DNA of 64,000 bases from Poronia punctata. Taxonomy: Eukaryota > Ascomycota > Sordariomycetes > Xylariales > Xylariaceae. Of this stretch, positions 7,085 through 64,000 are shown one piece after another (position 1 is the stretch's first letter; every line of letters starts with the position of its first letter). The notes under the pieces are model-generated. The model did not search any database. It saw only the letters and a list, made by a program, of their open reading frames with translations, and had not been told where the DNA came from. Both the position numbers and the translations under genes were made by a program. The DNA lies in assembly GCA_022579005.1 (NCBI GenBank), contig MU401490.1:183643-247642 (forward strand), in the 5' to 3' direction.

Positions 7085-8115
7085 GGTGTTTGTTGACGAA
7101 TCCAATACCACAGCACTCGCCAGAAAATAGAATTCGGGCCGTCGAGTCGAGGATAAAAGCTCGTTCGGGTCAACAGGAGACGCGCGGCGTACCTATGCAC
7201 TACGATGTCCGAAGCACCCAGCCTCGAGATAAGAACCCGTCGTTGGTGGGGGGCCAAGAGGACAAATGCAGCCCTCGACCGACACCAATGAGGCCTCGCG
7301 GATACAGCTAGAGAAGAGATTGGATAAGACCTTATGATGTGGTTCCGTTGATTGCGATTGAGACCGATGTGGCCCGCGACGTCGTGCGGGGTGACGCCAG
7401 CCCGAATACCGATGATTGAACCTAAGTCCTGTTATCGAATCTCATCGACCGATCGCAGAAAGTGACCTGGTAGGATTCCTAAAGGATCCGGGATTACTCA
7501 GGAACCATGCGAGTTCCCACACGGTTTCGAATCCCAAACTCTAAGACGAGGGCAAGATGTGTAACTAAATCTTGGATTGACTGGTAGTCCGCGGTAGAGA
7601 CGCCAAAAGAATACATAAATCCGGGACGTCTCAGAAAGTACAAAGTCGAATGGCTGGGAGTCGAGATGAAGGGAAAATATAGCCGAATGACATGGTATAC
7701 CTACGTATTCTTGGGTTTACTCGTACGAGAACCTTGGAGGACCTTGTGTTTCTAGACATGATAAGTATGTCAGCGTTCGTATGATTCGTCCGCTTGATGA
7801 TGTCCGAAACTCTTAATGTTTCCGTTTGCTGAGGAATGGCCTCGTTAGTTCTTATCCTTTCAAAGCCCGGGCTGGAGCTACCCCAGTCGACTAGCATCAA
7901 CACGGAAGGTGAATTGACCACCACGAGATGTACGCTCACGGCGTTGTCCCACGATGCCTGCGATAACCGAACAGCCTGACGAACTATAAAGGCCGGGGAA
8001 AGGCAGGGTGAAATACGTAGTCAGCACCAAGAATTTCAACTGAGCGTTAGATTTATCAAGCAGGCTGCAGCCGTTGACTTGTCCGACTTATTCAAACAAA
8101 ATTAAAAAATTCACA
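7085..8115. promoter_or_regulatory. Shared divergent promoter region of the UstYa-like gene and the repeat precursor
   Basis: About 1 kb separates the two start codons, which point away from each other. A TATA-like CTATAAAG lies at 7984-7991, about 125 bases before the precursor ATG. No clear operator palindrome was found by eye. Co-regulation is inferred from the arrangement only. Confidence 0.5.
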
Positions 8116-8595
8116 ATGAGATTCTCTACCATCCTTCTCGGCCTCTTCGCCACTGTAGGCCTCGCCGCACCCGTCGACAGCTCCGATGCCGCGTCCCTTA
8201 TGAAGCGGTGCAACTCGGTCAAGTGCGCCAAGGACACAGCATACGCCATCATCAAGCGGGAGCCCGAGCTCGATGTTCTCCTGGAGAAGCGATGCAACGC
8301 ACCCAAATGCGCCAAAGATACGGCGTATGCCATCATCAAGCGCGAACTTGAGGTGGAAGAGCTGGTGAAGCGATGCAACGCACCCAAGTGTGCCAAAGAC
8401 ACGGCCTATGCCATCATCAAGCGCGGCCCCGAGCCCGTCGAGAAGCGATGCAATGCACCCAAGTGTGCCAAGGACGCAGCTTACGCCATCATCAAGCGCG
8501 AGGCTGAGGTGGAGGAGCTCGTAAAGCGATGCAACCAACCCAGGTGTGCAAAGGACACGGCTTATGCTATCATCAAGCGCGAGTTCGAACAATAA
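8116..8595 (+). CDS. Secreted Kex2-processed repeat precursor, candidate RiPP precursor
   Basis: Single exon, 159 residues. The ATG at 8116 has a good fungal context (TCACAATG) and opens a signal peptide (MRFSTILLGLFATVGLAAP). The rest is five copies of a 17-residue unit with consensus CNAPKCAKDTAYAIIKR. Each is preceded by KR and ends in KR, with acidic 7-11 residue spacers such as ELEVEELVKR and GPEPVEKR. Kex2 cleavage and basic-residue trimming would free 15-residue peptides with cysteines at positions 1 and 6 and a C-terminal AYAII. Layout matches precursors of fungal ribosomal cyclic peptides (ustiloxin, phomopsin, epichloecyclin type), and the neighbour is a UstYa-like gene. The product is not one I recognise. 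A secreted signalling peptide is the main alternative. Confidence 0.85.
   Translation: MRFSTILLGLFATVGLAAPVDSSDAASLMKRCNSVKCAKDTAYAIIKREPELDVLLEKRCNAPKCAKDTAYAIIKRELEVEELVKRCNAPKCAKDTAYAIIKRGPEPVEKRCNAPKCAKDAAYAIIKREAEVEELVKRCNQPRCAKDTAYAIIKREFEQ
8209..8580 (+). repeat. Five in-frame 51-bp peptide repeats
   Basis: Units lie at 8209-8259, 8293-8343, 8374-8424, 8449-8499 and 8530-8580, spaced 84, 81, 75 and 81 bp. The peptide part CAKDTAYAIIKR is the same in all five except one T-to-A change in copy 4. Positions 3-5 vary (SVK, APK, APK, APK, QPR). Silent positions differ freely between copies, for example the Ala codon before Tyr is GCA, GCG, GCC, GCT and GCT. Confidence 0.95.
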
Positions 8596-10461
8596 ACTAC
8601 GAGAACTCGGAAACAAAACAATAAGAGGGAGGCAACACTGGGTGGCAGAATTACAGCATACATGTAAATGGCAGCCAATACGATTTGTTTGTCCTTTGGC
8701 ATTCCTTTCGGATCCAGAGCAGGAACATAGGATTTGTGGATGAATTTGGTCAAATGCTGAATGAGATTTGCGGGGAAGGATGAAAAAAAGACCACCTGCA
8801 CCGGTTAGACAGACTAGCTGTTATTACCTAATACACCCCCTGTACCTCCAGAATACTCGGCCCAGTTACAGTATACCCCGGTTTTGGCTACTTCCCACTC
8901 ATCCCGCATCGTTCCTTCACTCTAAAAGACATCAAGAAACATTCATGATATATTGCGTTGCAGTCAGCCAAGGTTAATAATATTCCAACCAACCTTCCTC
9001 CACCGTTACCTGCATAGAGAAACTCGGCTCAGATGTGGTGAGCAACCGGCTCATACCAAGTCTTTCATGGACCGCACCCGCACTCCTTGGGAACATAGGA
9101 GCTACCGTCCATATGGATCTCACCTCTCCCTTGTCGAAAAAAAGTACACATAGAAGGAATACGTATGGCGAATCCTAAGGGTTATCCAAAATGTCAAGAT
9201 GCTTTGCGTACACGAATCTCGGACGTGCAATAGACCTCAATCCATCTGCAGCCGCCATCGAACATGGTAAGTTCCGACCCTGTACATTGTTGGCTGCACT
9301 ACTTATTACCTAAATAAGGGAATGGGAAATGTGCCTTTACCTACGGACTAATGCAGGGTCCTTCCATCTGTAGCCATGATCCTGAGCTCAACCAGGGTAT
9401 TCATATTGCTCCAAGTGATTTTAAAACTATAGTGGTCTGTGTTATTTCTGCATTTACTTCTGAAATGAGGAAATTGGTAAGTATTCCAGAGTATAGTTCC
9501 TTACGTAGTTGCTATTGTTCCCAAAAGTTGATGGTGGCTACGAGTTGAGATGATGTGGCTACAAGACAAACGTCGATTGGCCACAACCTCCGTCTCTCAA
9601 GTTGACCAATGCCGTCCGTCACACTCATCATCGTGGCATTTCTCACTGAACATCGTACCTTAGTCATGAACTTCCCCCAGCACAAGATGCATTCAAATTG
9701 GGATGTATATGACTCTAAGAGGACAAATTCATGGGCATTTCGAGGTGGGAAGGATTCACCTGCTTGCCCCACAAAGTGACATTGTCTGAATAAGACCCCG
9801 GAGGATCACTTAATGTGTCATTTGACTTGCCAAAAAATATTTCTCTAGAATCTTTCAACATAGAAACAAGGTCATCCGAACTCTTGAGATTTTTGGAATT
9901 ATAGAGACTGCTGATTTTACTAACATCTTACCAGGTGTCCGGCACAACAGCCAAAGGCACTCGTTAAAAACTACAGGGTAGGTGGGTCCACTTCAGGGGG
10001 CCTATGTGGAGTAGATCGAATCAGGAAAGTGGGCTGGAGGGGTCAAAGAAGGAGGGGTTCAAATCTTTCAAAAGTGCTGCTCAGTTCAGTTGAAAGCGAG
10101 TTCATCATTGGATGTTCGGGCATTCCTTCTGGGAAAAGTAGGGCTACCAGCTAAGTACCGGCTGGCAATTCATTGCCGCCTAGGAAGAGATACCTAGGTT
10201 GTCTAGACATCAAACTAGTCCCAAGATTGTTCAATTTGTACAGATTTGTATGGACAAACGTAAAGAGAGTACCTTCATACATCATAAATAAAAAAGTTGA
10301 TAGGTACTGCCCCACTACACCCCATCAAAGGATCCGCGTCGCGTTTGTATCTCCGTGGCCGGACAGTTATAGTCATTTTTTCTGTCTGCTTGAGCCGTTT
10401 GTTGTAGCCTCAACCTCCAGTCGTCTTGTCACTATCAGACGCAACACCAGAGTAGAGCATC
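8596..10461. other. Intergenic region, no gene seen
   Basis: This 1.9-kb spacer follows the precursor gene and holds the promoter of adenylosuccinate synthetase. Open frames stay below about 110 codons and show no recognisable protein. No RNA gene was found. Confidence 0.55.
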
Positions 10462-26019: not shown

Positions 26020-28679
26020 TCAAGTTTCCACAATCGTCGCCGCCTCTTCGGTTGTCACAGCATCATCCACTTCGCCATCGCCATCATTCATATTCACATC
26101 AACATCAACATCGCCATCCTCTATCTTCGCTCCTCCATCCTCTTCATCCACATCGGCAACCGCCGCCGCAGCTTCCAACTTGGCCGACTCTTTAAGCGTC
26201 CGATTGATAACAGGCGAAGTATCATTGAAAAGGCGAACCATCATGGCCGACCGGTCTTCCTTGGGCAACATCAGGTTCAGGGAATGGTAGCTCTTCCATA
26301 AAGGCAAGACCATGCGTTCCGAGAACTCCGGGTCGGACCCATCGGGCTCGATACTGAGAAGACAGCAGCCCATACCGATCTCGCGGGTCCGTTCGCCAAT
26401 CTCGTTGAGCTTCTTCCAGTCGTCGTTGACGAATTTGGGGAACATCTCCTTCAGGAGCATGTGGAGGGTTTCCTTGTTCGTTAATCGGATCACCCGCTCC
26501 CGACCGATGTAGCCGGCGATGATGGGTAGACCCTCGGATTGGATCCGCCATCGGCAGACTTCGGCCGAGGGGGCGTCTTGCTTCATGAACATCTTGAGAC
26601 CGCCGTGGATGAACTTGACGCCTCGTCCTTCGTTTTCTACCAGGATTTCCCGGACTAGCTGACTGCTATAGTAGATGGCTTTCGCGGGCTCGCCCACGGC
26701 ATTACGGACCATGAATCGGTCTGAAGGGAACCGGGGCGAGATCTTGTAGAAGGCGCGGATGTTTTGAATCACCTCGTGGTCCGCGGGTAAGTATTTGAAT
26801 GGCTCTTCATATGCCCCTTCCGTCCGCTTGACTCGTTTGTCTGTGGAGGCATTTGGTGCAGGCGAGTCGGTTACCGCTAGAGACTCGGTCTGGGCGGTTT
26901 TGGGCTTAGATGGCTCGGCCTCGGTGACGGCTTGCACGATGTTCTCTATCTTCTCGGCGGGGGGAGTCTCTGTCCGCTGTCTTTTCCTCTCCGGTTCTTG
27001 TTCGGTCTCCCCTTCTAGTGTCCTCTTCGAACCGACAGACGGGACCTCGTCGGTTGGCTGTCCCAAAGTAGCTTTGGATTCTTCTACGATCTCCTCCTTT
27101 GTGGCGGTGGCACTATCCGATACCGGGGCGGAAACCTCGGCCTTCGGGGCGCTGGGTGTCACTAGCTGGGATTTCGCCTCTTCCTTGGCCTTGAACTCCT
27201 TTTTCTTCTCAAGGACGGTGATGAAGAACCCGCCAGTATCTTGTTGATGGGCGTAGACACGCATACAACGATCGAGAGGAAGACCCGAGCAGTCACTCGA
27301 ATCTGGTCTCGGGAACATGGTGTGGGAGATCTTGCCGGGTGCCTGTCCACCTTCCGTGACATGTTTCTGAACTTCTTCCCAGTTGTTCCAGATTCTGCCC
27401 GACTTGTCCATGATCTTCCACTGGTGCATGCCAGGGTATCGTTTTAGCAGCGGAAGCTTGTCTTTGCAGTCGATGATATCTACGACATCGGGGCCGCCAC
27501 AACGCTCAATAGCAGAGACGACAACGGATTCATTCTCAACAGGATTCATACTGCAGGTAGAGAATACAACCCTGCCACCAACCTTTAGCATCTGAAGGGC
27601 TCTGACAAGAATTCTGATTTGCGTGTTGTGAAGACCCAGAGCATTTCCGGGCTGCCAATTCTTCCAAAGATCGACATTCTTTCTCAGAGTGCCGTCTCCG
27701 GAGCATGGGACATCGGCCAATATCCGATCAAACTTGAGATACCGAGCAAGTTTAGGGTTGCTAGGGTCGGGGCTGATTCGAAGTGGCGGGAAGAGAGTGG
27801 CATCGTGGTTCGTGACGATAAGGTTAGGGGAAGAAAGTCGCTTAAGCTGGTGTACCAACATGTGGCATCTCTTATATTCGACGTCGTTGGCAATGAGCAG
27901 TCCCGTAGCGCGCCCATCATCGGCAGAATCCTCGGCGGGATCCACATCTTCCGGCTCGTTCGTAGGGAGCGAAGCCTCGCCGAACGACTCCATGAATTTC
28001 CGAATTCTAGCTTCTTCGCCAGAGTGGATCATCTCGAGCAGTTGGGCGGACTTGCTTCCGGGGGCGGCACAGAGATCCAACACGGTCATGCCAGGCTTGA
28101 GGTCCATGACAAGAGGCGGGATCATGCTCACCAATTCTTGTCTGCTAATGTTTCCTACACTCGTTTCCGACACAAGGAACTTCTGGAACGAGGCAAAAGG
28201 AGGGAATTTTCGGACGACTTGCTTCGGGGTCGTCATGGAGTAGGCGAGCTGGTCGGGATACCAGGGAACAGGTTGCGGGGCCTGTACGACATCGCCGTTG
28301 AAGTGTTCGATCTTGCTGATCTCGGGCGCATAGCGCGTCTCAAGAAGACGCTTGACGGCAACCGCATGGCCCTTGGAGCCGCAGAAGCGGAAGGAATTGG
28401 GTAATTCCTTGCGTAGTGCTTCCCAGAATTCCGCCTTCTCGGTGTCGTCGAGGGGCAGGGCGCTATTGTAGAAAGCCTCTAGCTTCTCGTTCGTCTTGGG
28501 GATATCGGGGTATGATCGATATGAGTCTGTTCGAGGCTTGCGCTGGTCACCACCACCTCCACCTTTGCGGTCACCCCCCTTACGGCCACCCTATAAAAAT
28601 CAGATCAGTTCTCGGCTCCGACCAGATAAGAGTGAACACTCGACGAATATTTAGGACATACTCGGTTCTTCCGACCCAT
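26020..28679 (-). CDS. NCL1: tRNA (cytosine-5-)-methyltransferase, Trm4/NSUN2 type
   Basis: Exons 28679-28662 (18 nt, MGRKNR) and 28590-26020, 862 residues, slightly longer than yeast Trm4. A Gly/Arg/Lys-rich N-terminus (GGRKGGDRKGGGGG) precedes the catalytic domain. Visible SAM-dependent Nop2/Sun motifs are VLDLCAAPGSKSAQLLEM, FDRILADVPCSGDGTLRKN (motif IV, PCS) and STCSMNPVENESVV (motif VI, catalytic TCS). After a disordered Glu/Lys/Thr insertion with KRKRQR, the Trm4-specific C-terminal region follows (FKYLPADHEVIQNIRAFYKI). The tail is acidic, with Asp-Val-Asp repeats. The enzyme makes m5C at several tRNA positions (34, 40, 48, 49 in yeast), mainly in the nucleus. Confidence 0.94.
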
Positions 28680-50820: not shown

Positions 50821-52947
50821 GGAGTCAAAGTTTGGATTAAGTAAGTCCGGGAGCTGTATATCGAAGGAATCTGTATGGGTAGGAATAAATAACAAAATCA
50901 ACGTCCTTCGGGATACCAAGTCAACTCAATCAAACTACTTGGTACAGGTCGGTTACACTTTGACATCTCTATAGCTGCACACATGGTAGGGTTGAGCTAG
51001 TACTGCTAAAATGAAGCCATCGCGAACCTCCCTAACCGTACCCCCAACCTTCCTTCTAATTTTATTTTCTGTTTTCGGAATCCTCGGCTCTAATTAGCTA
51101 ATTAACTAAAAGGACCTAATTTTTGCAAATCTTTACACTTTAATTAGCTTACGTTAGTATATAGCAAAATTTGCTAATAACAAGATTATAAACGCTATAG
51201 TACCTAGCTACTGTTTTTAAGCTGCAGTTTACTAAGTAAACAAAGCTTGCTACTTTATTTATAGTAAACTTATAATATAAAAAAGTAAAAATTAATAGCA
51301 ATTTTTTATTTTTAAAAATAACGTTTAAAAAAGACGCTATACTTTAAAATATTACTTTTTAAAATATAATAGTAAAGCATTTTATAAAAGCTTAGCGCTT
51401 TATTAAAATATAAAAAAAAGTTTTTATAAAGCTAATTAATGCTTTAAATAAATTTGCAACTTTATTTAATAAGCTTAACTAGGTAATATAAAAATAAGTA
51501 GCTTAAAACTTTACTAAAAAGGTTAGCTACTACTTAAATATAATAGTATTTATATATACTATAAAACTAATAATATTACTTAAGCGTTTATAATTAATTT
51601 ATTATAACAAAGCTTTAATAAAAGCTTTTAAATTAACTAAATTTTATACTACTATAGCTTGTTTTATTTTATTAGCTAGCAATATAGTACTTTAAAAAGC
51701 AGCAAAGCCTACTAGATTTTTTATTTTTATAGCGTTTTTTAAAGCTTACTTAAAGCTATTAAATATTAAAAATTTTAAAATTTTAGTTAAAGTTACTTTT
51801 AAAAAACTAATTTATTAAAAAAAGCTTTATATAACTTATATAGCTTTTATTAAAAAATTAAAAATCTAGCTTATAAAAATTATTAACTTTTAATATACTT
51901 AAACTAAATAAGCAATTAAAATAATTAGCTTTATTATTTATAATAAGCTTATAAGTAATAAGTAAAAAGCTATTATTATAAAAGCCTTAGTAGTAAAAAA
52001 AATTAAACTATTAAAAAAGTAAATTATATATATTATTAGCAGCGTACTTATATTTTTTTTTAATATTATATAGTAATAATTAGTAAATATAACTATTAAA
52101 TTAGTTAAAAAAAAAGTAAAAGTATAAATAAAGTATAATTTAGTAAACGCGCACCTTTTATATAAAAATGTTAACGTTATTATTATTATATAAAACTAAA
52201 TTATATTTTTTAAGTACTTAGTAAAAAGCTTTTAGCTATTTTTAACTAGCTAGCTAGCTAAGCAAATTAATAAAAAGCTTTTTATTATTAAGTATAAAAA
52301 ATAAAGCTTAGGTTGTTAAAAGTTTTATTTAGCTTAGCACTGCTTTAAAGCGTATTATTACTATAATTATAATAATAAACTAAATAAATATAAACTAAGT
52401 AAGTATAAAAAACTACTATGCTATATAAATTGCTTTAAGCTTTACTAAGCTAGCTACTTAAATTACCTTGCTAAGCTAAAAAAAGTAAGCTAATAAGTAA
52501 TAGTGCTATTAAAAAAGTAGCTAGCTATAATATAAAAAGCTAATAATAAATAATATAAAAATAAAAATAAGCTATTTATAGCAATAGTAAACTTAGTAAA
52601 CCTAGTATTTTTTAATTTAAATAAAAGTATTAATATTAATATAAAATAGCTTAAGCTTGCTTAGGTTATTAAGCAAAAAAAAGCAGCGTTAGTAAACGCT
52701 TAAGTGCTTGCTGCTTTTTTTATAAGCTAATACTAAGCTTTAAAAAAAAACAATAACTAAAATAAAATAAATATAATAATAAAAATCCTAGCTAAAAAGT
52801 AAAACAATAATAAAGTATTATAAAAAACTAGCTTAAAAAAAATAAACTTTTTAAACGCTTAAAAAAGCTAAAATAATAAAAACAGCAAAAGTAATGCTAG
52901 CACTACTATAATAGTTATAAAAATAAAAGTAGTTATAAATAAAGTTA

Positions 52948-53194
52948 TAGTTATAGATTGGTTAATAGCAGTATAGCTAATTAGGTGGCTTATAGCTATT
53001 ACCTTTTTTAAATAGTAAATATAAGGGCTTGCACCTGCAAACAGCTGCAGCCCTACTAGTTAGTGCATATATAGGTTTGCACCTTTAACAAGAGCTTAAA
53101 GGCTTTTTTTTTTTTTTCTCTTTACTTTAAGATTTTTAGCAATAAATTAAGTTACCTTTAAGAGCCTTGCTTTCTTTATAACTTAATTATAACA
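52948..53194 (+). repeat. 5' LTR of the gypsy element
   Basis: Aligns without gaps to the copy at 59504-59750; by eye about 25 differences, all C/T or G/A. It contains the least decayed island of the block (CACCTGCAAACAGCTGCAGC). It ends in ATAACA. Start is uncertain by 1-2 bases. Confidence 0.88.
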
Positions 53195-56100
53195 ATTTTA
53201 AAGTTATTAACACTAGTTAAAAAACGTAATATTTTAACTTAATAATTTAACTTAATTAAAATTAACTTAACCTAGCAATATTACGTTAGTAGCGCTACTA
53301 AAAACTAATATTTTAGCTACTAATTAATTATAGCTTAAAAAAACAAAGAACGTGCAAAAATGCGCGTAGCTATAAAGCAACAAGCTTTAGCTAAAATACT
53401 ATATTAAAATAATAACTTTATAAAAACTATTTTTAAAACAAACAAGATTTTTTAAACAAAAGCTTGTAAACAATCTATTATACTTCTTTACTTGTTTTTA
53501 AAAACAAAAAGCAAGACTTTAAGTTATATTGCTAAAAAATTTAATAATAAAAATACTTTAAAAACCTTAATAAAATAAGCTTAAGTATTTAACTAACGTA
53601 TAGCTAAAAATACTTTTAAAAAAATATACTATATATAAATAATTAAAAAATTTTACTAAAAAACCTATAAGCTAGTAAAAGCTTTTGCTAAGCTATACAT
53701 TAAAAAAACTAATAAACTTAGCTTTTTATTTATAGCGCTTATAAAAAATAAAAAAAAAGCTATTTTTAATTTTAATAATACTATAAATATTAAAGCCTTT
53801 AATAACCTAATAAGATTTTACTTTAAAGTAATTTTTTAAAAATTAAAAATTTAAGCTTTAATATTAATAGCATACTAAGTATAAAAAAACACTATATATT
53901 GCTTACTTACTATTAGCTAACAAACTATAATAAACTTAGTTTAATAAGCATAATACCTAGCTTACTTTAGTTTAAAAAAAACTACTAAGTTAAAAGCTAA
54001 AATATAACGTTTATAAAAACAAAAAAAAAATTAAATGCGTAGTTAAAATAAAGCTGCACCTTTACTAATTACAAATTAAAACAAAATCGTAAAACGTATA
54101 ACTTTAAAGCTAGCAAAAGCTTATAATAAAATTAACTGCTTAAAAAACTAAATAATTAACGCTAATTAATAGGTAGTAGATCTACTAGCTTGCAATAAAT
54201 TAATATTTTAAAATAACGTTTTTTTATTTACCTTTTTTACGCAACCTTATAAATTTGCAAAAATTAAAGTATTTACATTTTATAATAATAAAGAAAAAAA
54301 TAAGGTTACATTTAAAGTATAGCTATACTATATGCATAATTGCCTTAAAGCTAATAAAAATTAGTTTATTAATAACTAAGCTAGACTAGCTAATATTAAG
54401 GCTTACTTAAAAAGCTTTATAGCTAAAAACTTTTAGCTATATTTGCAAAACAATTACTTAAATATAATAAATACGCTTATAAAGCTTTTAAACTACTTAA
54501 AAAGCAAGTATAAAAACGTTAACTAAAAACAAAACGTTAAAATTAAATATTAAAAATTAAAAATAAAAAGTCTTACTAATTATTAAACTTTTAAAAACAA
54601 CTTTATACGTTTAGCAAGTAAACAATAAATTTTTTATACTAAATAAAAAAAAAAGTTTTATAATAAACTTATAGCTTATTTATAATATAAAATTATATTT
54701 TAATACTTTAACAATATTATTAATTTTAATATATTTATTTAATACTATATGCAAGTAGTTTATACCTTTTAATAAGAAAATAAACGCAAAATAGTACAAA
54801 AACTTGCTAATAATTTTTGTTTTAATATAGTTAAACTAGCACAGCTTAATACTAAAAAAATAAATATAGTTATAAAAAGCTATATTAGCAATGCTAAACT
54901 ATATAATAATAGCTAACTTAGCTAATAAGTTTTTTTAAAATAATAACTTAAGCTTTTTGCTAAAAAAATAAAAACCTTAATTATTAAAAGTTATTGCTTT
55001 AATTATAAAAGTTAAAAATATACTTTTTATAAGTATTTATAAAAAAAAAATAACTTTAACTAGTAAGCATGTATTTAAGCTATCTTGCTAGCTTATAGTT
55101 TTAATAACAATACTTTTTTTGCTAAAAAAAAAAAAGAAAAAAAATAAACTTTAAAAAAATAACTTTAAAATAAGTTAACTTTTACTTAAAAAAAGTATTA
55201 CTTAGTATTAGTATAAATAAAAAATTAAGTATAGTAAATAAGTATATAAAAAAAAACCTTTTTATATTTAGCTATATACTATTAAATAATAAATTTTCTT
55301 TATAAACTAACAACGTTTTAAGTAATATAAAAGCTAATATATATATAGCTATAAACACGTTTTTAGTAATAAAAATTAAAGCTAACTTTAACTTAGTTAT
55401 TATTATAAACTTTAATTACTAAATAGCAACAAAATTTAATAGTAAAAGTTGCTAAAAAATATATAAAATACTTATAATTATATTTTAAATAAACTAATAA
55501 ATATTTAAAAAAGTTTTTTTAATAGTTTTATATATATAATATAATATAATATTAAGCAAGCTATAGTTTACTAAGTATAAAGTATTACTAGATTATAAAA
55601 ACTACTAGCTACTATTTTTAAAAACTTTATTAGCAAAATTTAAATGCTTATTAAATAAAAACACTTAAACGCAAATACTTAAAAAAATAAGCTTTAAACT
55701 TTTAGCTAATAATACTATATTAGCTTTTATAAAAAAAATTTTTTGCTACTATACTTATTTTAACCTAATAAAAGTTAATCTTTAAAAAATAAAAAAAGCT
55801 TTAATAGTAAAAGAAAACCTACTTAAAAAAACATAAAAAATATAAAGTATTTTTAACAAATAGTTATTTAATATATAAAAACTATATTAAATAAAAAAAA
55901 ATAGTATATTTTAGTATAAAAAAAAACTAATAGTTAAACTTTACTTACTTATAGCTTTATTATTTTAGCATATAGTTTAAGTAAATTAATTAAAAAACAA
56001 AGTTAAAATAATTAGCATAAAAAAAATTAATATAGTTATAAACAAAAAACAAATTAAAAAGTTTTTTAATAAAAAAAGCAAAGAGCTAAAAAAGCAAGCT

Positions 56101-59100
56101 TTAAAAGTAATTTTTTTTAAATATTATAACTTACTATATACTTTTAGCAAAGTTAATTTAAATACCTTACTATTATATTAGCTTAAAGTAAACTATTAAA
56201 TTAAATTTTTAAAAAAAAAATTATTAAAAAATTTTAAGTATAGCTTATTATATAAAATATTGCTAAATAAGTTAAAAATAGTTAAAAAATACTTAGTAAA
56301 CTAGTTATAAAAAAGCTTTATTAAACTAAACAATGCTTTATAAGTATTTTTAGTTTTATTTATATTAAAACTATATAAAAAACTACGTTTTTATATTAAC
56401 TATTAAAAGCTAAACAATTTAATAAAAAAAAATTAATACCTTTTATTGCTAATTAAAAAAACTTTATTATATATATTTAAAGCAAAAATATTTATTAAAA
56501 TTAATATATAATAAGCGTTTTACTATATTTAAATAATACTAAAAACAAAAAACTTTATAACCTTTTAAACTTAATATAGTACATACTAATATAAAGTGTT
56601 GCTATTTAAGCTTATAAACAAACTATCTATATTTTAAAAATATATTAACAATACCTTATTTAATTACTTTAACTACTTTTATTGTACTTATATAAACAAT
56701 ATATTAATATACTTTATAACCTTAAAAAAACACTAAAAATATATAAAAAAAGTTTTACTATAGCTATAAAAAGCTAGTTTATAAGCTAATTTAAAAAAAT
56801 TAAAATTTTACGTTATAAAAACTAAATTTTTAAAATATATAATTAGTACTAAAAGCATAAGCGTTAACCTAAGTAAAATAAAAGTAGTTAAAAATTAAGC
56901 TGCGCTTATAACTATAAAAAAAATATAATCTTTTTTAAAATTTTATAACTTTTATAAAAAGTTTATATATAACTATAGCTATAAAGCAAAGTTATTTATA
57001 ACATTAACCTATAACAATACTTTTTTTATTTAAAGCAAAAAATGCAAAAAGGCCTTTTAAAAATTAAAAAAAATATTAATAGCAGCTTCTTTACTATAAC
57101 ACTATAACTATAACTTACTTATAAAAGTAAAAACTAACGCGTTAAACAAAGTAGCAGCTAAAATTTTAATATAGTTATACCTTAATAAAAAATAGCACTT
57201 ATTAGCTTTTTTTTAAAAAACTATAAGCAAAGCTAAACTTAATTATAAAATTTACAACAAAAAAATATTAGCAATAGTTTTAGCTATAAAAAAATAAAAA
57301 GCTAAACTTATTAGTTATTAATATAATAAACTATTTTTAGTTATTACTAACTATAAAGCATTAAAGTATTTTAGTACAAAATAACACTTTAACTTATAAT
57401 AAGCAAAATAGTTTACCTTTTTAGCAAAATATAACTTTATAATTATATATTGCTTAAAAAAAGAAAACATAGTTATAAACGCGCTATTTAAAAAATAAAA
57501 AAATATAATTTCTTAAAAAGTAAAAAAAAACTTATATAAGCACGCTACCTTTTTTTAACTAGTTATAACTAAATTTATATTAACATAAATAAAAAACATA
57601 ACTAAAATCTTATTTTTTAAACCTTAAAAAAAAGTAAAAGCTTTAAAAAGTTTTTAACTTATAAATAAAATCTTATAAAAAAATTAAAAAAACCTAGGTA
57701 TGCAAATTTATAAATAAAAAACAAAAGCTAAAATTAAAAACCTAAACAATAAAACAAATATAAATAATCTATAAAAACTAGAAAATAGTTTAACTATATA
57801 TAAAAAGAAACTAGTAGTACTAAATACCCTTTTTTTATAAACAAAATTAATAAAAAAAGCATACAAAAAAATATTAACAGTACACCTAAGTAAAAAAAAA
57901 ATACGCTGCTTAGTTATAAAAAAATATTAGTAGCTTTAACTAAAAAACAATTATAATAAATATATAGCAAATTGCTTATAATATTATCTAGCTAAAGTTT
58001 TTAAAAACAAAATACTAAGCAAACTAATACTATTACCAATTTTAAACCGTATTTAAAAACATATTATAATAAACTTTAAACAAATGCTAAAAAATAAGCA
58101 TAAATTTAATAACATAATAGTTATAGTAAACAAACTAAAAAAAAGGTTATAAACTATCTCTTATATAATAAAAATTATAGTATAGCAAGCAGCTTAACTA
58201 TACTATAAAAAACTATTTAAAGTATTTAAATTACTAGTTATAATTACTTTAAATTATAAACTTTAGTTTATCTTTGCTTTTATAAATAAAGTTGCTAAAA
58301 TTTTTAGCATTATATAAACTTTAGCTTTATTAAAGTACTATAAAACAATAAAGCAAGCTAAAATAATAAATAAGTACTTAAACTAAAAATTGCGCTTATA
58401 TATTAACTACTACTAAAATAATTAGTTAAAAAAAATACTTGCTATAAACTATATATAAGCTATAATACTATACAAGTTAACAAAGTTATTACTTTACAAA
58501 ATAAAAATAAGTTTTTTAATACTGCTATAATTTAACTAAAAAAACAAAATAGTAAATAATAAAATAAAAAACCTTTTATAAAAAAAACAAAAATTATACA
58601 CTAAAGTATAAAGCTAAATTTAAACTATTGCAAATTATATTAACATAGCTAAAAAAAACCTATAACGTATATAAAAACAAATAACTAAATAAGCAAACTA
58701 AAGCTATAAAAAACCTAACTTTAATATAAAAAACTTTATTTTTATACTAAAAAAATAATAAGTATAGCAAACTAACTAACTATTTAATAAGCTTAATTAC
58801 TTAATAACCTAATAAAAATTTTGCATTTTATTTTATAATAAAAATACTTATACGCTTAAAGTACTGCTTACTTAGTAAGTAACTAATAAATACTATACTA
58901 ACTAGTTACAAAAATACCTAAATAACTTATTACTAAGCTAAAAATTTAAAAACTTTAAAAGTAAAATAATTATATTATTAAGCAAAAAAAAGTTTATAGT
59001 AAAAAAAATATACATATTAAAGCTATACTATAAAAAACTTTAATATAAAGTAAATTAAAAAAAATAAAACATAAATAATAAATAATATTTTATAAAAAAC

Positions 59101-59503
59101 TTTAAAAACAGTGCAAAATTATTAAAAAAGTTTTATAAATAATACTTAAACATAGCTAGCTTGCTACTATACTTAGCTAAATAGCTTAAAGTAGCAGCTT
59201 ATAATAAGTTTAATAAACTATATATTAATAATAATAAAGTTGCATAATTTACGTTAAAAGTGCAAAAAATGCAAAAAAAAAACGTGTAAAAAGCTACTTT
59301 ACACAGTTAAACTACTATAATTAGTTATAAAAAAACTAGTACTATAGCGCAATAGTATAAAGGCCTAAACTGTTATAATAATAGTAAATACTTAAAACAA
59401 TCTTTTTTTAGCTAAAAAGCAACTAATTAAAAAAAACTTAAAAAACATTAGTTTAAACCTAAGCTATACTTTAAAACAAGTTATTTTTTTCTTTTAAAAA
59501 AAG

Positions 59504-59750
59504 TAGTTATAAATTAGTTAATAACAATATAGCTAATTAAGTAGCTTATAGCTATTACTTTTTTTAAACAATAAATATAAAAGCTTATACCTGCAAACAG
59601 CTGCAGCCTTACTAATTAGTGCACATATAGGTTTGCACCTTTAACAAAAGCTTAAAAGCTTTTCCTTTTTTTTCTTTTTACCTTAAGATTTTTAGCAATA
59701 AATTAAGTTACTTTTAAAAGCCTTGCTTTCTTTATAACCTAATTATAACA
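59504..59750 (+). repeat. 3' LTR of the gypsy element
   Basis: Partner of the 5' LTR with the same length. At most differing sites this copy has T or A where the 5' copy has C or G, so the two copies were mutated independently. Confidence 0.88.
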
Positions 59751-62700
59751 GTTATTAAATTATATACTAATAATATTAAAGCTATATTAAATTAGCAGCT
59801 TATATAAATATATAGTATAGCGTTTTTATAACTTATACTTATACTTAACTAGTTTAAACTAGCACTAGATGCTTAGTAAAAAAAAACGTTATAAGCTAGC
59901 TAAAATATTAAAAAATTTATATATTAAAGTATATAATATATAAAGATTTTAACTAGTATATATTGCTTTTTTTTAAAAATATTAAAAAAAATAAATAAAC
60001 GTTATAATAATATAAGAGCTATAAGTTTTTATACTTACTTATATATAAATATAAATATATTTAAAGTATACTATATATATTTTTTTAAAATACTAGAACT
60101 TAAAAAAAACTAGACTTTAAATTATAATTTATATAAAAAAAAACAAGGCTAAAAGCTATACTATATAAGCTTATAGCTTTTAAAAACTTATTATAAATAA
60201 ACGTTAATAAGTTTGCTTTGCTAAACTACTATAAAGCACTTTAAATAAAAAAAGTGCTATAGTACTTATGCTTGCTAAAGCTGCTATAAAATTGCTTTAT
60301 AGCTAAAAATACTAATATAAAACATATAAACTAAAAGCTAAAGTTAGTTTTTTAAAAAAGTAGTAATAAACTAGCTTTATAGTTTACTTAGTTTAGCATA
60401 TTTTATATTAGTTAGCTTAAAATTGCTATATATAAAAATAGCTACGTTATTAATTTACTTTTTTTTAATATACTATTTACTAATGTAAACTTTAATTATA
60501 AGTATATATTAAGCTTTAACTACTACTTATTATAAGTAATGCTTTTTTAAAAAAAAAAAAGGCTTTTATTAAAGCAGTATAAATAAAAAATTAAAAAATT
60601 AAAGCTTAAAAGGCTAGCTAACCTAGTAATAAATATAGTACTTTTTTTTTTAAACATTATTAATACTAAAAACTTAAATAATATAAAAAGTATAGCAAAA
60701 AAGCTTATAAATATTTTAATAAAAGCAATTTAAATAGTAGGCACTTAATATAAAGTTAAAAAAAAGTTAGTACTTTAGTAAATAAATATATGCAAACTAG
60801 CTTATAATAACTTAAAGCAGGCTAAAAAAGCTTAAATAGCTAATAAAGTAAAAAATAAAAGTATAATAATAAAGTATAAAGCTTTTTTTATAATAGTTTA
60901 ATAAGCTAAAAAAAAATATTAAAGCAAGCATATTAATAAAGTAAAAATAAATAAAAACCTATATGCGCTTATTAAATAGTATAAGCTTAAAGCAAAGCTA
61001 TAAATGCTTTTTTTAAAAAACTTAAATATAAAAAAGCTAATTAAGCAAAGCTTAAATAAAGCTTAGTACTTATATAAAAAAATACTTAAAAAATATAGTA
61101 TTAATAATAATTTTATAAACAATATACTTTTAAAGCTAAAATACTTATTATAGTTTATAAAAATTACTTTAAAAAAAATAAACTATTTTATATATAAAGT
61201 TAAGTTTACTTTATTAAAAGAAAATAATATTATAGCTAAAGTAATAGTAGCTTACTAAGCATATATTAGTAAATATTATTAAGTTTTAAAAAAGAAAATT
61301 TTTTATATAAGCTATTTTTTAAAAGCTTAAAAAGTAATATAAGTAGTAATAATTTTTAAGCTAAGCAAAATAAATTTTATAACGTTTTAGTTATTTAAGC
61401 TTATAGTATTACTTTTTTATATTAGCAAAAAATATAAAAAGTTAGTAGCTAGGTAAATAGTATAAGTTAGCTTATAAGCTAAGCTAATTAGCTTTTAATA
61501 TATAAAAGCAATACTTATAAAGTTAGCTATAAACTTAATTACTAGCTTTATATATAAAGTAAACCTAGCGTTAGTAAAAAAAAAAAAGGTTATATTAATT
61601 ACTTTAAACATATAAAAAGCTTTTAACGCATTATATAAGCAGTAGCTACTACGTTATATAATATTATAAAGTTAGCTGCTTTAAGTAATAAAACTAGCTA
61701 AAAACTTTTTTATAAAATAGCGCTTATATATTAAGTTAAAAAAAAATATAATAAAAGTATAAAATTAAAAGTATAAGACCTTATAAAGCTTACTTTAGTT
61801 ACTTATACTATATATATTTTATATAGCTAAACTATTAAATAAAAGCTTATACTAGTAAAGGTATGCTAATAATATAAGCATTTTTATTATAGCTAATAGT
61901 ATAAATAAAAGCGCAAAAAAGGCCTAGCAAAAAGTTAAGCATATTTTAAATTATAAAAAAAATAATAAGATCTTTTTTACTTTAAAAAAAATAAAAATAA
62001 TTTATTTTATAAAAAAATATAAAATTATAAACTTAAATATTAATACTTTAATTAAAACAATATATTTAATACTACTAAAGCTTTTAAAATATAAAAAAAC
62101 TATAGTATAAGCCTTATAAAAGTTAAAGCTAGCGCTATAATAGCTTAAAGTTTAGCTAAACTAAAAACTATTTTTTAAATATTATATAAAAAAGCAAGTA
62201 GCTATTAGTATATACATTTTTAATTATATTAAAGTATTAATAGCTATAAAAAAAAAGCTTTTAGCAGCAGCACTATATAAAGTAGCATAAATTATATTAA
62301 TACTATTATTACTTTATAGTAGTAAAGTTTAATATAAAAACAAAATAAAGCTAGCTTAGAATAAAGCTAGCAAACTTATAAAAATAAGTATAAAAGTTAA
62401 AAGTTATATAAATTTAATATAATAAGCTATAATTAAAGTAGCTAAAAAAGTGCTACTAGTATAAAAAACTTAATTTAACTTAACGCTTTTTATAAATAGC
62501 AAACTTTTTATAGCATAATTAGTATTAAATAAAGTAAAGCTATGCTTTGCTTATTAAATATAAATAGTTTTAAAAAATTACTTTTTAGTAATAAAAGTAA
62601 AGCTAATTAAAATTAAGTAAAAATAAAAAACAAAGCAAATTTAACTTTTTATTATAAATATATAGCTTATAGTAAGTTTATTACTAGCTATAGCCTAGCT

Positions 62701-64000
62701 TATACTATATTTACTATATTACTTAGCTAGGTTATAAGTTAACTTAATATATAAGCTTTTAAAAAAAAACGTAACTAAAGCATTTTAAAAGTAGTTTAAT
62801 AAAAAGTTAGTTTTTAATGCTATAATGTTTTTAAATAGCTTTAAAATTAGTAGTAATAAAGTTAGCTATAGTTATATAGTTTATAAAAGTATAAAAAAAG
62901 TAGTAAAAAAAAGTAAAAGCTTAAATAATTACTTTAATATATTTAATGCTAAAAAAATAAAGCTATTAAAAAGCTTATAAAAAGCTAAAAAGCTTTGTTT
63001 AGATTTTAATATAATAATATATATAAATAATACTACTATATTTTTATTAGTCTGGCTAGAGGTTAATATAATTATAACACGTTACTATTTGTAGTACTAT
63101 GTTAACTTAATTAATAAAAAGGAAAAGGAAGTTATAAGGACTTTTTTTAGCAAGTTTTATATAGCTATAAAGGTTTTTAATTAATTAAAACTTATTAGCG
63201 ATATAAGAGGGACACGTATACTTTATGTATTTAATATATAAAGAACGCGTACTTTATATATACCGGTTACGTACTATGTACGTATACTGCGTATATACTT
63301 TTTTAATAAAGTAAGTTTAATGCAATTTATAATAAATGTATAAAAAACTAAATATTTATGTTTATAAAATATTTATGTTTTAATAGTTTTAATGTAGTTA
63401 ATAAAATTAAAGGTATTAAAAGGGATTTTAATACTTGCTATTTTTTTTTAACTATATTTTTATTTTTTTGTGCTTTTGTTTTTAATTTGTAGGCAATTTA
63501 CTATTGCTTTAATTTTTATTTATATTTAATTTGTTATAATAAAAGACTTAAGTGCTTAGTTAAAAGTTTTTTTTATAAACAAATTTGCAAAGTTATCTTT
63601 TTTGTTAATTTAATATATTTTTGCAATTTTCTTTTTTTTATAAGATTTTTATAGTAATATTATGTTAATTATAAAGCGTTTTTTTTATATACTTTTAAGT
63701 TTTATAAAATACTAGTAAAGCAACTTAAAATTAGTATAAAGTACTAAAGGAATTAAAAGTAATTTAAGTACTTTAAAAATTAAATATAAGGTAGTATGTA
63801 AAGCAATAGCATTATTAACTTTGTTAACTATATTATATAGTTTACTAGCAAAAATAAATTAAGTAATGCGCTTATATTTACTTAAGTTTTAGTATATAAT
63901 ATTATTAGTAATTTTATATTTATTTTGCTTATAATTTAAAATTAATTTAGTAGCAAAAATAATAATAAAACTAATTTAAAAGCTTAAGTTAGTGTTGTTA

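Follow-up and report, generated by a model that had tools for sequence, protein, structure and literature searches.

A five-copy two-cysteine peptide precursor adjoining a UstYa gene in Poronia punctata, a probable two-gene dikaritin-type RiPP pathway

A repeat precursor gene and a divergent UstYa gene

We analysed a 64,000-nucleotide window spanning bases 183643–247642 of a 247,642-base contig (C37) in the 45.05-Mb, 573-contig assembly of Poronia punctata, a dung-dwelling fungus of the Xylariaceae. Within it, a gene for a repeat-containing peptide precursor stands back to back with a gene for a UstYa-type enzyme (Table 1). The precursor reads as a single uninterrupted frame of 159 codons and a stop, and its hydrophobic start is followed by five tandem units, each with KR both before and after it, the architecture of a Kex2-processed repeat protein (KEP). 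Between the units lie the spacers EPELDVLLE, ELEVEELV, GPEPVE and EAEVEELV; over the 35 residues of these spacers and the tail EFEQ, Asp/Glu occurs 16 times and Lys/Arg never. The first-pass annotation had described this layout of signal peptide, five KR-flanked units and acidic spacers, and both the open frame and the direct DNA repeats, present in five copies at spacings of 84, 81, 75 and 81 nt, confirm it. The consensus unit that it gave, CNAPKCAKDTAYAII, is also ours, occurring exactly in two of the five copies; the remaining three depart from it at one or two residues.

Table 1 Features of the precursor–UstYa locus (window coordinates)
Feature	Position	Strand	Basis or content
UstYa (DUF3328, PF11807) gene, 307 aa	5963..7084	-	Pfam match and GT-AG spliced model
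UstYa exons	7084-6808, 6750-6628, 6557-6144, 6072-5963	-	four exons, GT-AG splicing
Intergenic stretch, 1031 bp	7085..8115	.	between the divergent UstYa and precursor genes; TATAAA at 7985-7990
Precursor gene, 159 aa	8116..8595	+	signal-peptide-like start and five KR-flanked 15-residue units; no intron needed
Hydrophobic, signal-peptide-like N-terminus MRFSTILLGLFATVGLAAP	8116..8172	+	by eye from translation
Unit 1 CNSVKCAKDTAYAII	8209..8253	+	translation
Unit 2 CNAPKCAKDTAYAII	8293..8337	+	translation
Unit 3 CNAPKCAKDTAYAII	8374..8418	+	translation
Unit 4 CNAPKCAKDAAYAII	8449..8493	+	translation
Unit 5 CNQPRCAKDTAYAII	8530..8574	+	translation

Comparison of the five copies with one another (ten pairwise comparisons) gave 45 synonymous versus 4 non-synonymous differences across the codons of CAKDTAYAII (pS 0.67, pN 0.017; rate ratio ~0.025), indicating that the peptide is kept by selection and not by recent copying alone; the CNAPK part of the unit is less constrained (pS 0.41, pN 0.19; rate ratio ~0.47). 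The precursor was matched once in the whole P. punctata genome, at its own locus only. It was not returned by protein searches, although the adjoining UstYa protein is present in NCBI, and judging by this absence it seems to be unannotated in the public P. punctata protein set. On the opposite strand, a 174-aa frame at 8092–8616 was set aside as a mirror of the repeat, and the stop-to-stop frame at 8095–8820 gave no Pfam match.

The spliced UstYa model matches GGS20DRAFT_333095 of P. punctata (P0005 in our searches) at all 307 residues (100% identity), and its exon 3 frame matches PF11807 with E 4.6e-39 (2.1e-37 in the whole-genome scan). The protein has one transmembrane-like hydrophobic stretch, near its start, and two intact HxxHC motifs (HELHC at residues 169–173 and HSEHC at 201–205), the H and C residues of which are invariant across a five-row alignment of relatives. 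The locus thus holds two hallmarks of dikaritin pathways, a UstYa/DUF3328 gene near the precursor and an intact HxxHC(x)nHxxHC arrangement in its product. This arrangement is the binuclear copper site in CctR, point mutants of which are inactive, and the cyclase AprY is reported to be copper- and O2-dependent (PMC12435403). An AlphaFold2 model built from the five-row alignment has low confidence (mean pLDDT 45, pTM 0.31) and draws helices at residues 51–76, 161–181 and 192–215, with the HxxHC motifs falling in the second and third; a PDB sequence search with UstYa returned no match at E up to 0.1.

The TATAAA of the intergenic stretch ends 125 bp upstream of the precursor ATG, and the divergent pair would be served by a shared promoter. 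A genome-wide PF11807 scan yielded 27 matches, including two exons that both belong to the one window gene. With ~20 UstYa genes, a count that reflects our own merging of these matches, in 45.05 Mb, the chance of a random site lying as close to one is ~0.0014.

A Tyr-x-Ile core and a cysteine pair are conserved across homologous precursors

Two protein searches recovered six homologous precursors: P0001, from Xylariaceae sp. FL0594, and P0002, P0003, P0004, P0010 and P0011. A hydrophobic start was recognized by eye in all six, as in the Poronia precursor, that of P0010 coming after a 17-residue extension that is probably a mis-called start. Across 21 units (19 distinct) from the seven precursors, the word A-Y-x-I is invariant (21/21), x being any of six residues (A, S, R, N, L or T) and the position after Ile taking seven. 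The residue three before Tyr is acidic throughout (D in 20 units, E in 1). All 21 units carry the first Cys and 20 the second (41 of 42 cysteines overall), with four intervening residues in 16 units, three in 3 units and six in 2 units, the four-residue class counting a P0003 unit in which Tyr replaces the second Cys.

The Tyr-x-Ile word of the ustiloxin/phomopsin group is therefore present in every unit. EDYXI, the conserved word that Le Marquer et al. describe for ustiloxin/phomopsin KEPs (PMC6339444), is absent; the units read D-T-A-Y, without acidic residues directly before Tyr. Because Tyr and Ile are fixed while the residues between and after them vary, the units fit a Tyr–Ile side-chain bond, the closure described for the ustiloxins (YAIG, YVIG) and phomopsin (YVIP) (PMC7329392). 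In both P0003 and P0011, which are identical at 54 of 79 positions, the KR that follows the core is no longer intact in one unit (AER and AKS), and these losses, like that of the second Cys in P0003, suggest decay or other processing.

A search with UstYa singled out five proteins among 440 candidates: the window gene itself (P0005), P0006 from Nemania serpens, P0007, P0008 and P0009. In a 22-row tree built on 152 of 565 columns, with several short rows and weak support for most other branches, these five group together and separate from the 17 Poronia paralogue rows (support 98/98). Precursor P0004 and UstYa P0009 are each encoded on a single 11,902-base contig (jgi, ena), and precursor P0011 and UstYa P0008 each on a single 9,637-base contig (lgn); the equal base count and source make it likely that each couple shares one contig. 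The 9,637-base contig is Nemania-like, since P0008 and P0006 agree at 126 of 133 positions, with differences confined to both ends of the match.

The contigs of P0003 and P0010 (1,249 and 989 bases) do not extend far enough to reveal a neighbour, and the UstYa search recovered none for P0001 or P0002, on contigs of 144,983 and 150,921 bases. For P0002, from a metagenome contig, gene calls that split exons could explain the miss; for P0001, the missing partner is a real gap. Conversely, the precursor searches found no partner for P0006 or P0007. Linkage is thus shown or likely for three of the seven precursors, hidden by short contigs for two and not found for two. The first-pass annotation had taken homologues that never occur near UstYa genes as a refutation; the divergent gene here and same-clade genes on matching contigs for two relatives speak in its favour, and none was recovered for P0001 and P0002.

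The pair lies among apparent housekeeping genes

A Pfam scan of 34 window frames (out of 104 that reach 100 aa), together with five frames of the left flank (L049), found no tailoring enzyme besides UstYa, a survey that small or split genes may escape. The scanned neighbours look like housekeeping genes, among them a ubiquitin hydrolase, an adenylosuccinate synthetase, a dynamin, an EF-G-type GTPase and an NSUN2-type RNA methyltransferase (26023–28590), the only methyltransferase among these frames. To the left of the pair are the ubiquitin hydrolase and a HAD-like frame (below its cut-off), and to the right the adenylosuccinate synthetase. We judged an MFS transporter in the left flank (L049, 8075–9286) to be unrelated to the pair; it lies to the left of the UstYa stop at a distance of ~6.7 to 7.9 kb, and the ubiquitin hydrolase and HAD-like frame separate the two. 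Stronger evidence for the absence of a larger cluster comes from genome-wide scans, which placed none of 20 tyrosinase (PF00264) matches and neither of two S41-peptidase (PF03572) matches on the precursor's 247,642-base contig.

The far end of the window, 50900–64000, which is also the contig end, looks as if it had undergone repeat-induced point mutation: G+C is 0.16–0.21, TpA/ApT is 1.6–1.8 (0.70–0.97 in the rest of the window) and (CpA+TpG)/(ApC+GpT) is 0.37–0.44 (1.05–1.22 in the rest).

Other precursor–UstYa pairs in the genome lack cysteines

We scanned the surroundings of the other UstYa matches in the P. punctata genome, taken as 15 regions, for KEPs, and in five (L039, L040, L042, L047 and L048) found a repeat-precursor-like frame ~0.4 to 2.8 kb from the UstYa match. 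The scan yielded 14 frames, of which these five and that of the window were kept; the eight dropped (two each in L035, L040 and L048, one each in L046 and L049) were Arg-rich, of low complexity or another frame of a kept one. Cys is absent from the units listed for all five, so in P. punctata the pairing is common and it is the cysteines that stand out. In a survey of 7878 KEPs, 22% had a DUF3328 gene nearby (PMC7329392).

The five frames differ in their units. L040 (2920–3600, minus strand) holds eleven copies of AAYREGAWGKR, ~1 kb from the UstYa match. L042 (2174–2908, minus; ten copies of SGDAVPWNAVGSEKR) and L048 (6984–7637, plus; GEAIVPWKEGVQ) are KEP-like with Trp units, near their UstYa matches, and have the word V-P-W in common on two contigs. 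Five QFVGTYVPAG units lie in L047 (7795–8115, plus), 2.8 kb from the UstYa match, with an apparent intron after the signal peptide. DVHISEGFRR and SVQVSEGFRR repeats occur in L039 (4427–4720, minus) between two UstYa matches, in a frame for which a gene start was not found.

A proposed two-gene pathway and its alternatives

From the precursor, its repeat, the intact UstYa gene beside it and the conserved residues, we infer the following route. The precursor would enter the secretory pathway, where Kex2 would cut at the KR pairs and a carboxypeptidase would then strip KR to leave 15-residue units; a Kex2-type protease is required in the ustiloxin pathway (PMC4740483). The adjoining enzyme, predicted to be membrane-anchored and of the copper type, would work in the lumen of the same pathway, oxidatively joining the Tyr phenol oxygen to the beta-carbon of the Ile two residues on and so closing a small Tyr-x-Ile ring. 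The two cysteines would most likely form a disulfide in this oxidising compartment; a thioether in its place is conceivable. We consider it probable that UstYa makes the Tyr–Ile bond on the Kex2 unit, as a two-gene dikaritin-type RiPP pathway. That assessment covers the enzymatic step common to two products, between which it divides about evenly. As one of them we tentatively propose a mature 15-residue peptide with two rings, an N-terminal loop bridged by the cysteines and, near the C-terminus, a Tyr–Ile ether made by UstYa. The product is probably a secreted bioactive peptide of Xylariaceae. Ustiloxin and phomopsin need a tyrosinase too (PMC7329392), and of all the evidence its absence from the contig weighs most heavily against a route identical to that of ustiloxin; for asperipin-2a, which has other bonds, one UstYa-type enzyme can cyclise although its cluster has no tyrosinase.

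The other product, which shares the UstYa step and whose probability therefore overlaps with that of the route above, would arise if the cysteine half were a recognition sequence only and peptidases trimmed the unit to Tyr-x-Ile-x (YAII here), losing the cysteines. Ustiloxin offers a precedent, its Kex2 unit being taken as a 13-/14-mer with YAIG inside that is cut down later (PMC6514808, PMC7329392); a Tyr-x-Ile within a 15-mer is accordingly ordinary, and the contrast with Tyr-starting cores drawn in the first-pass annotation fails at the precursor level. The ED and KR flanks of ustiloxin are thought to serve enzyme recognition (PMC6514808), and the variable spacing between the Poronia-type cysteines (3, 4 or 6 residues) is what a loosely held handle would show. 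However, both cysteines are retained in 20 of 21 units, more than a short ED-like handle would seem to need, and the contig has no S41-peptidase match; we regard trimming as a serious but doubtful reading. UstYa might instead perform another reaction on the unit, such as a Cys–Tyr thioether, hydroxylation or Ile desaturation, given that DUF3328 enzymes have been linked to hydroxylation, halogenation, isomerisation and macrocyclisation (PMC12435403) and UstYa homologues to desaturation (PMC10512285). This is unlikely, as an invariant Ile two residues after an invariant Tyr is what a Tyr–Ile ether predicts, and a thioether would have no need of Ile.

It is quite improbable that the product is a linear or disulfide-only secreted peptide of pheromone- or hormone-like function, the UstYa gene being coincidental or acting elsewhere. 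Ascomycete alpha-pheromones do carry two cysteines, and two DNA-pattern scans of the genome did not locate a separate pheromone gene, giving 5 and 2 scattered matches (6 and 1 in reversed controls). Many KEPs also yield linear peptides (PMC9769878). Yet the KEP survey reports a DUF3328 neighbour for 0 of 227 alpha-mating-factor and 3 of 216 fungal-pheromone KEPs (PMC7329392), the pairing with UstYa recurs in two relatives, as judged from contigs of equal base count and source, and Trp is absent from the entire precursor.

Novelty and significance

The first-pass annotation had put the locus forward as a candidate new RiPP family. A RiPP-type precursor with an adjoining UstYa gene is indeed there, but 'new family' is too strong, since a precursor with a DUF3328 gene is an abundant, known kind; as far as could be seen, it is the Cys-pair variant that is new relative to the described peptides compared here. 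An exact-string search of literature main texts (that is, outside supplementary tables and figures) with six core strings found none, and the literature searched has no paper that combines Xylariales with RiPP and UstYa. Among the matches listed for UstYa/DUF3328 literature with cysteine, disulfide or core peptide, no such peptide appears in titles or the starts of abstracts. The type G-6 of Umemura, which covers Hypoxylon and Monosporascus among others and whose profile contains Tyr and Asp, may overlap with the Poronia unit type, a comparison made by text, the G-6 logo being a figure only; the words cysteine, Cys and disulfide are absent from the main text of the paper that describes it.

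The two-gene cassette and its strict Tyr-x-Ile come close to the simplest system for testing a single UstYa, without a clustered tyrosinase, on a ustiloxin-type ether, and also suit the question of how UstYa recognises its unit. If the cysteines are kept in the product, the result would be a new peptide scaffold. To our knowledge, a two-ring product would be the first dikaritin-type peptide to combine a disulfide with an oxidative side-chain ether, and its synthesis would take only a single enzyme gene and a single precursor gene, kept across several Xylariaceae. By a 2022 count, five dikaritins had been reported, against 838 computed precursor types (PMC10512285).

Comparison with known systems

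Alpha-pheromone precursors combine a signal peptide, Kex2 repeats, two cysteines per unit and a W-C...C-W signature. The Poronia precursor shares the first three with them; in contrast, its units do not show the signature, and it has a UstYa neighbour. Epichloecyclins (GigA) and victorin resemble the proposed product in being derived from KEP precursors with oxidatively closed side chains, and differ in their links (Ile N-terminal to Tyr; Phe to Leu); the account of them in PMC9233826 mentions, in the parts consulted, no conserved Cys pair.

Asperipin-2a (AprA/AprY) is similar in that its cluster is small and contains one UstYa-type enzyme but no tyrosinase (PMC6514808), whereas its core is FYYTGY with two Tyr ethers, and its four-gene cluster adds a transporter and a reductase; in Poronia only the precursor and UstYa adjoin. 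Typical repeat lengths are 13 for ustiloxin, 14 for phomopsin and 8 for asperipin-2a, as against 15 in Poronia (PMC7329392). With ustiloxin and phomopsin, the Poronia locus shares a signal-peptide precursor, tandem KR-flanked units and a DUF3328 gene nearby (PMC7329392, PMC6514808, PMC6339444), as well as an acidic residue followed by Tyr-x-Ile within the unit. Those pathways have two or five UstYa genes where Poronia has one, and their clusters include a tyrosinase and an S41 peptidase, neither of which has a match on the Poronia contig. Within the precursor itself, the departures from the ustiloxin/phomopsin layout are the pair of conserved cysteines and the residues preceding Tyr, which are DTA where that layout has ED.
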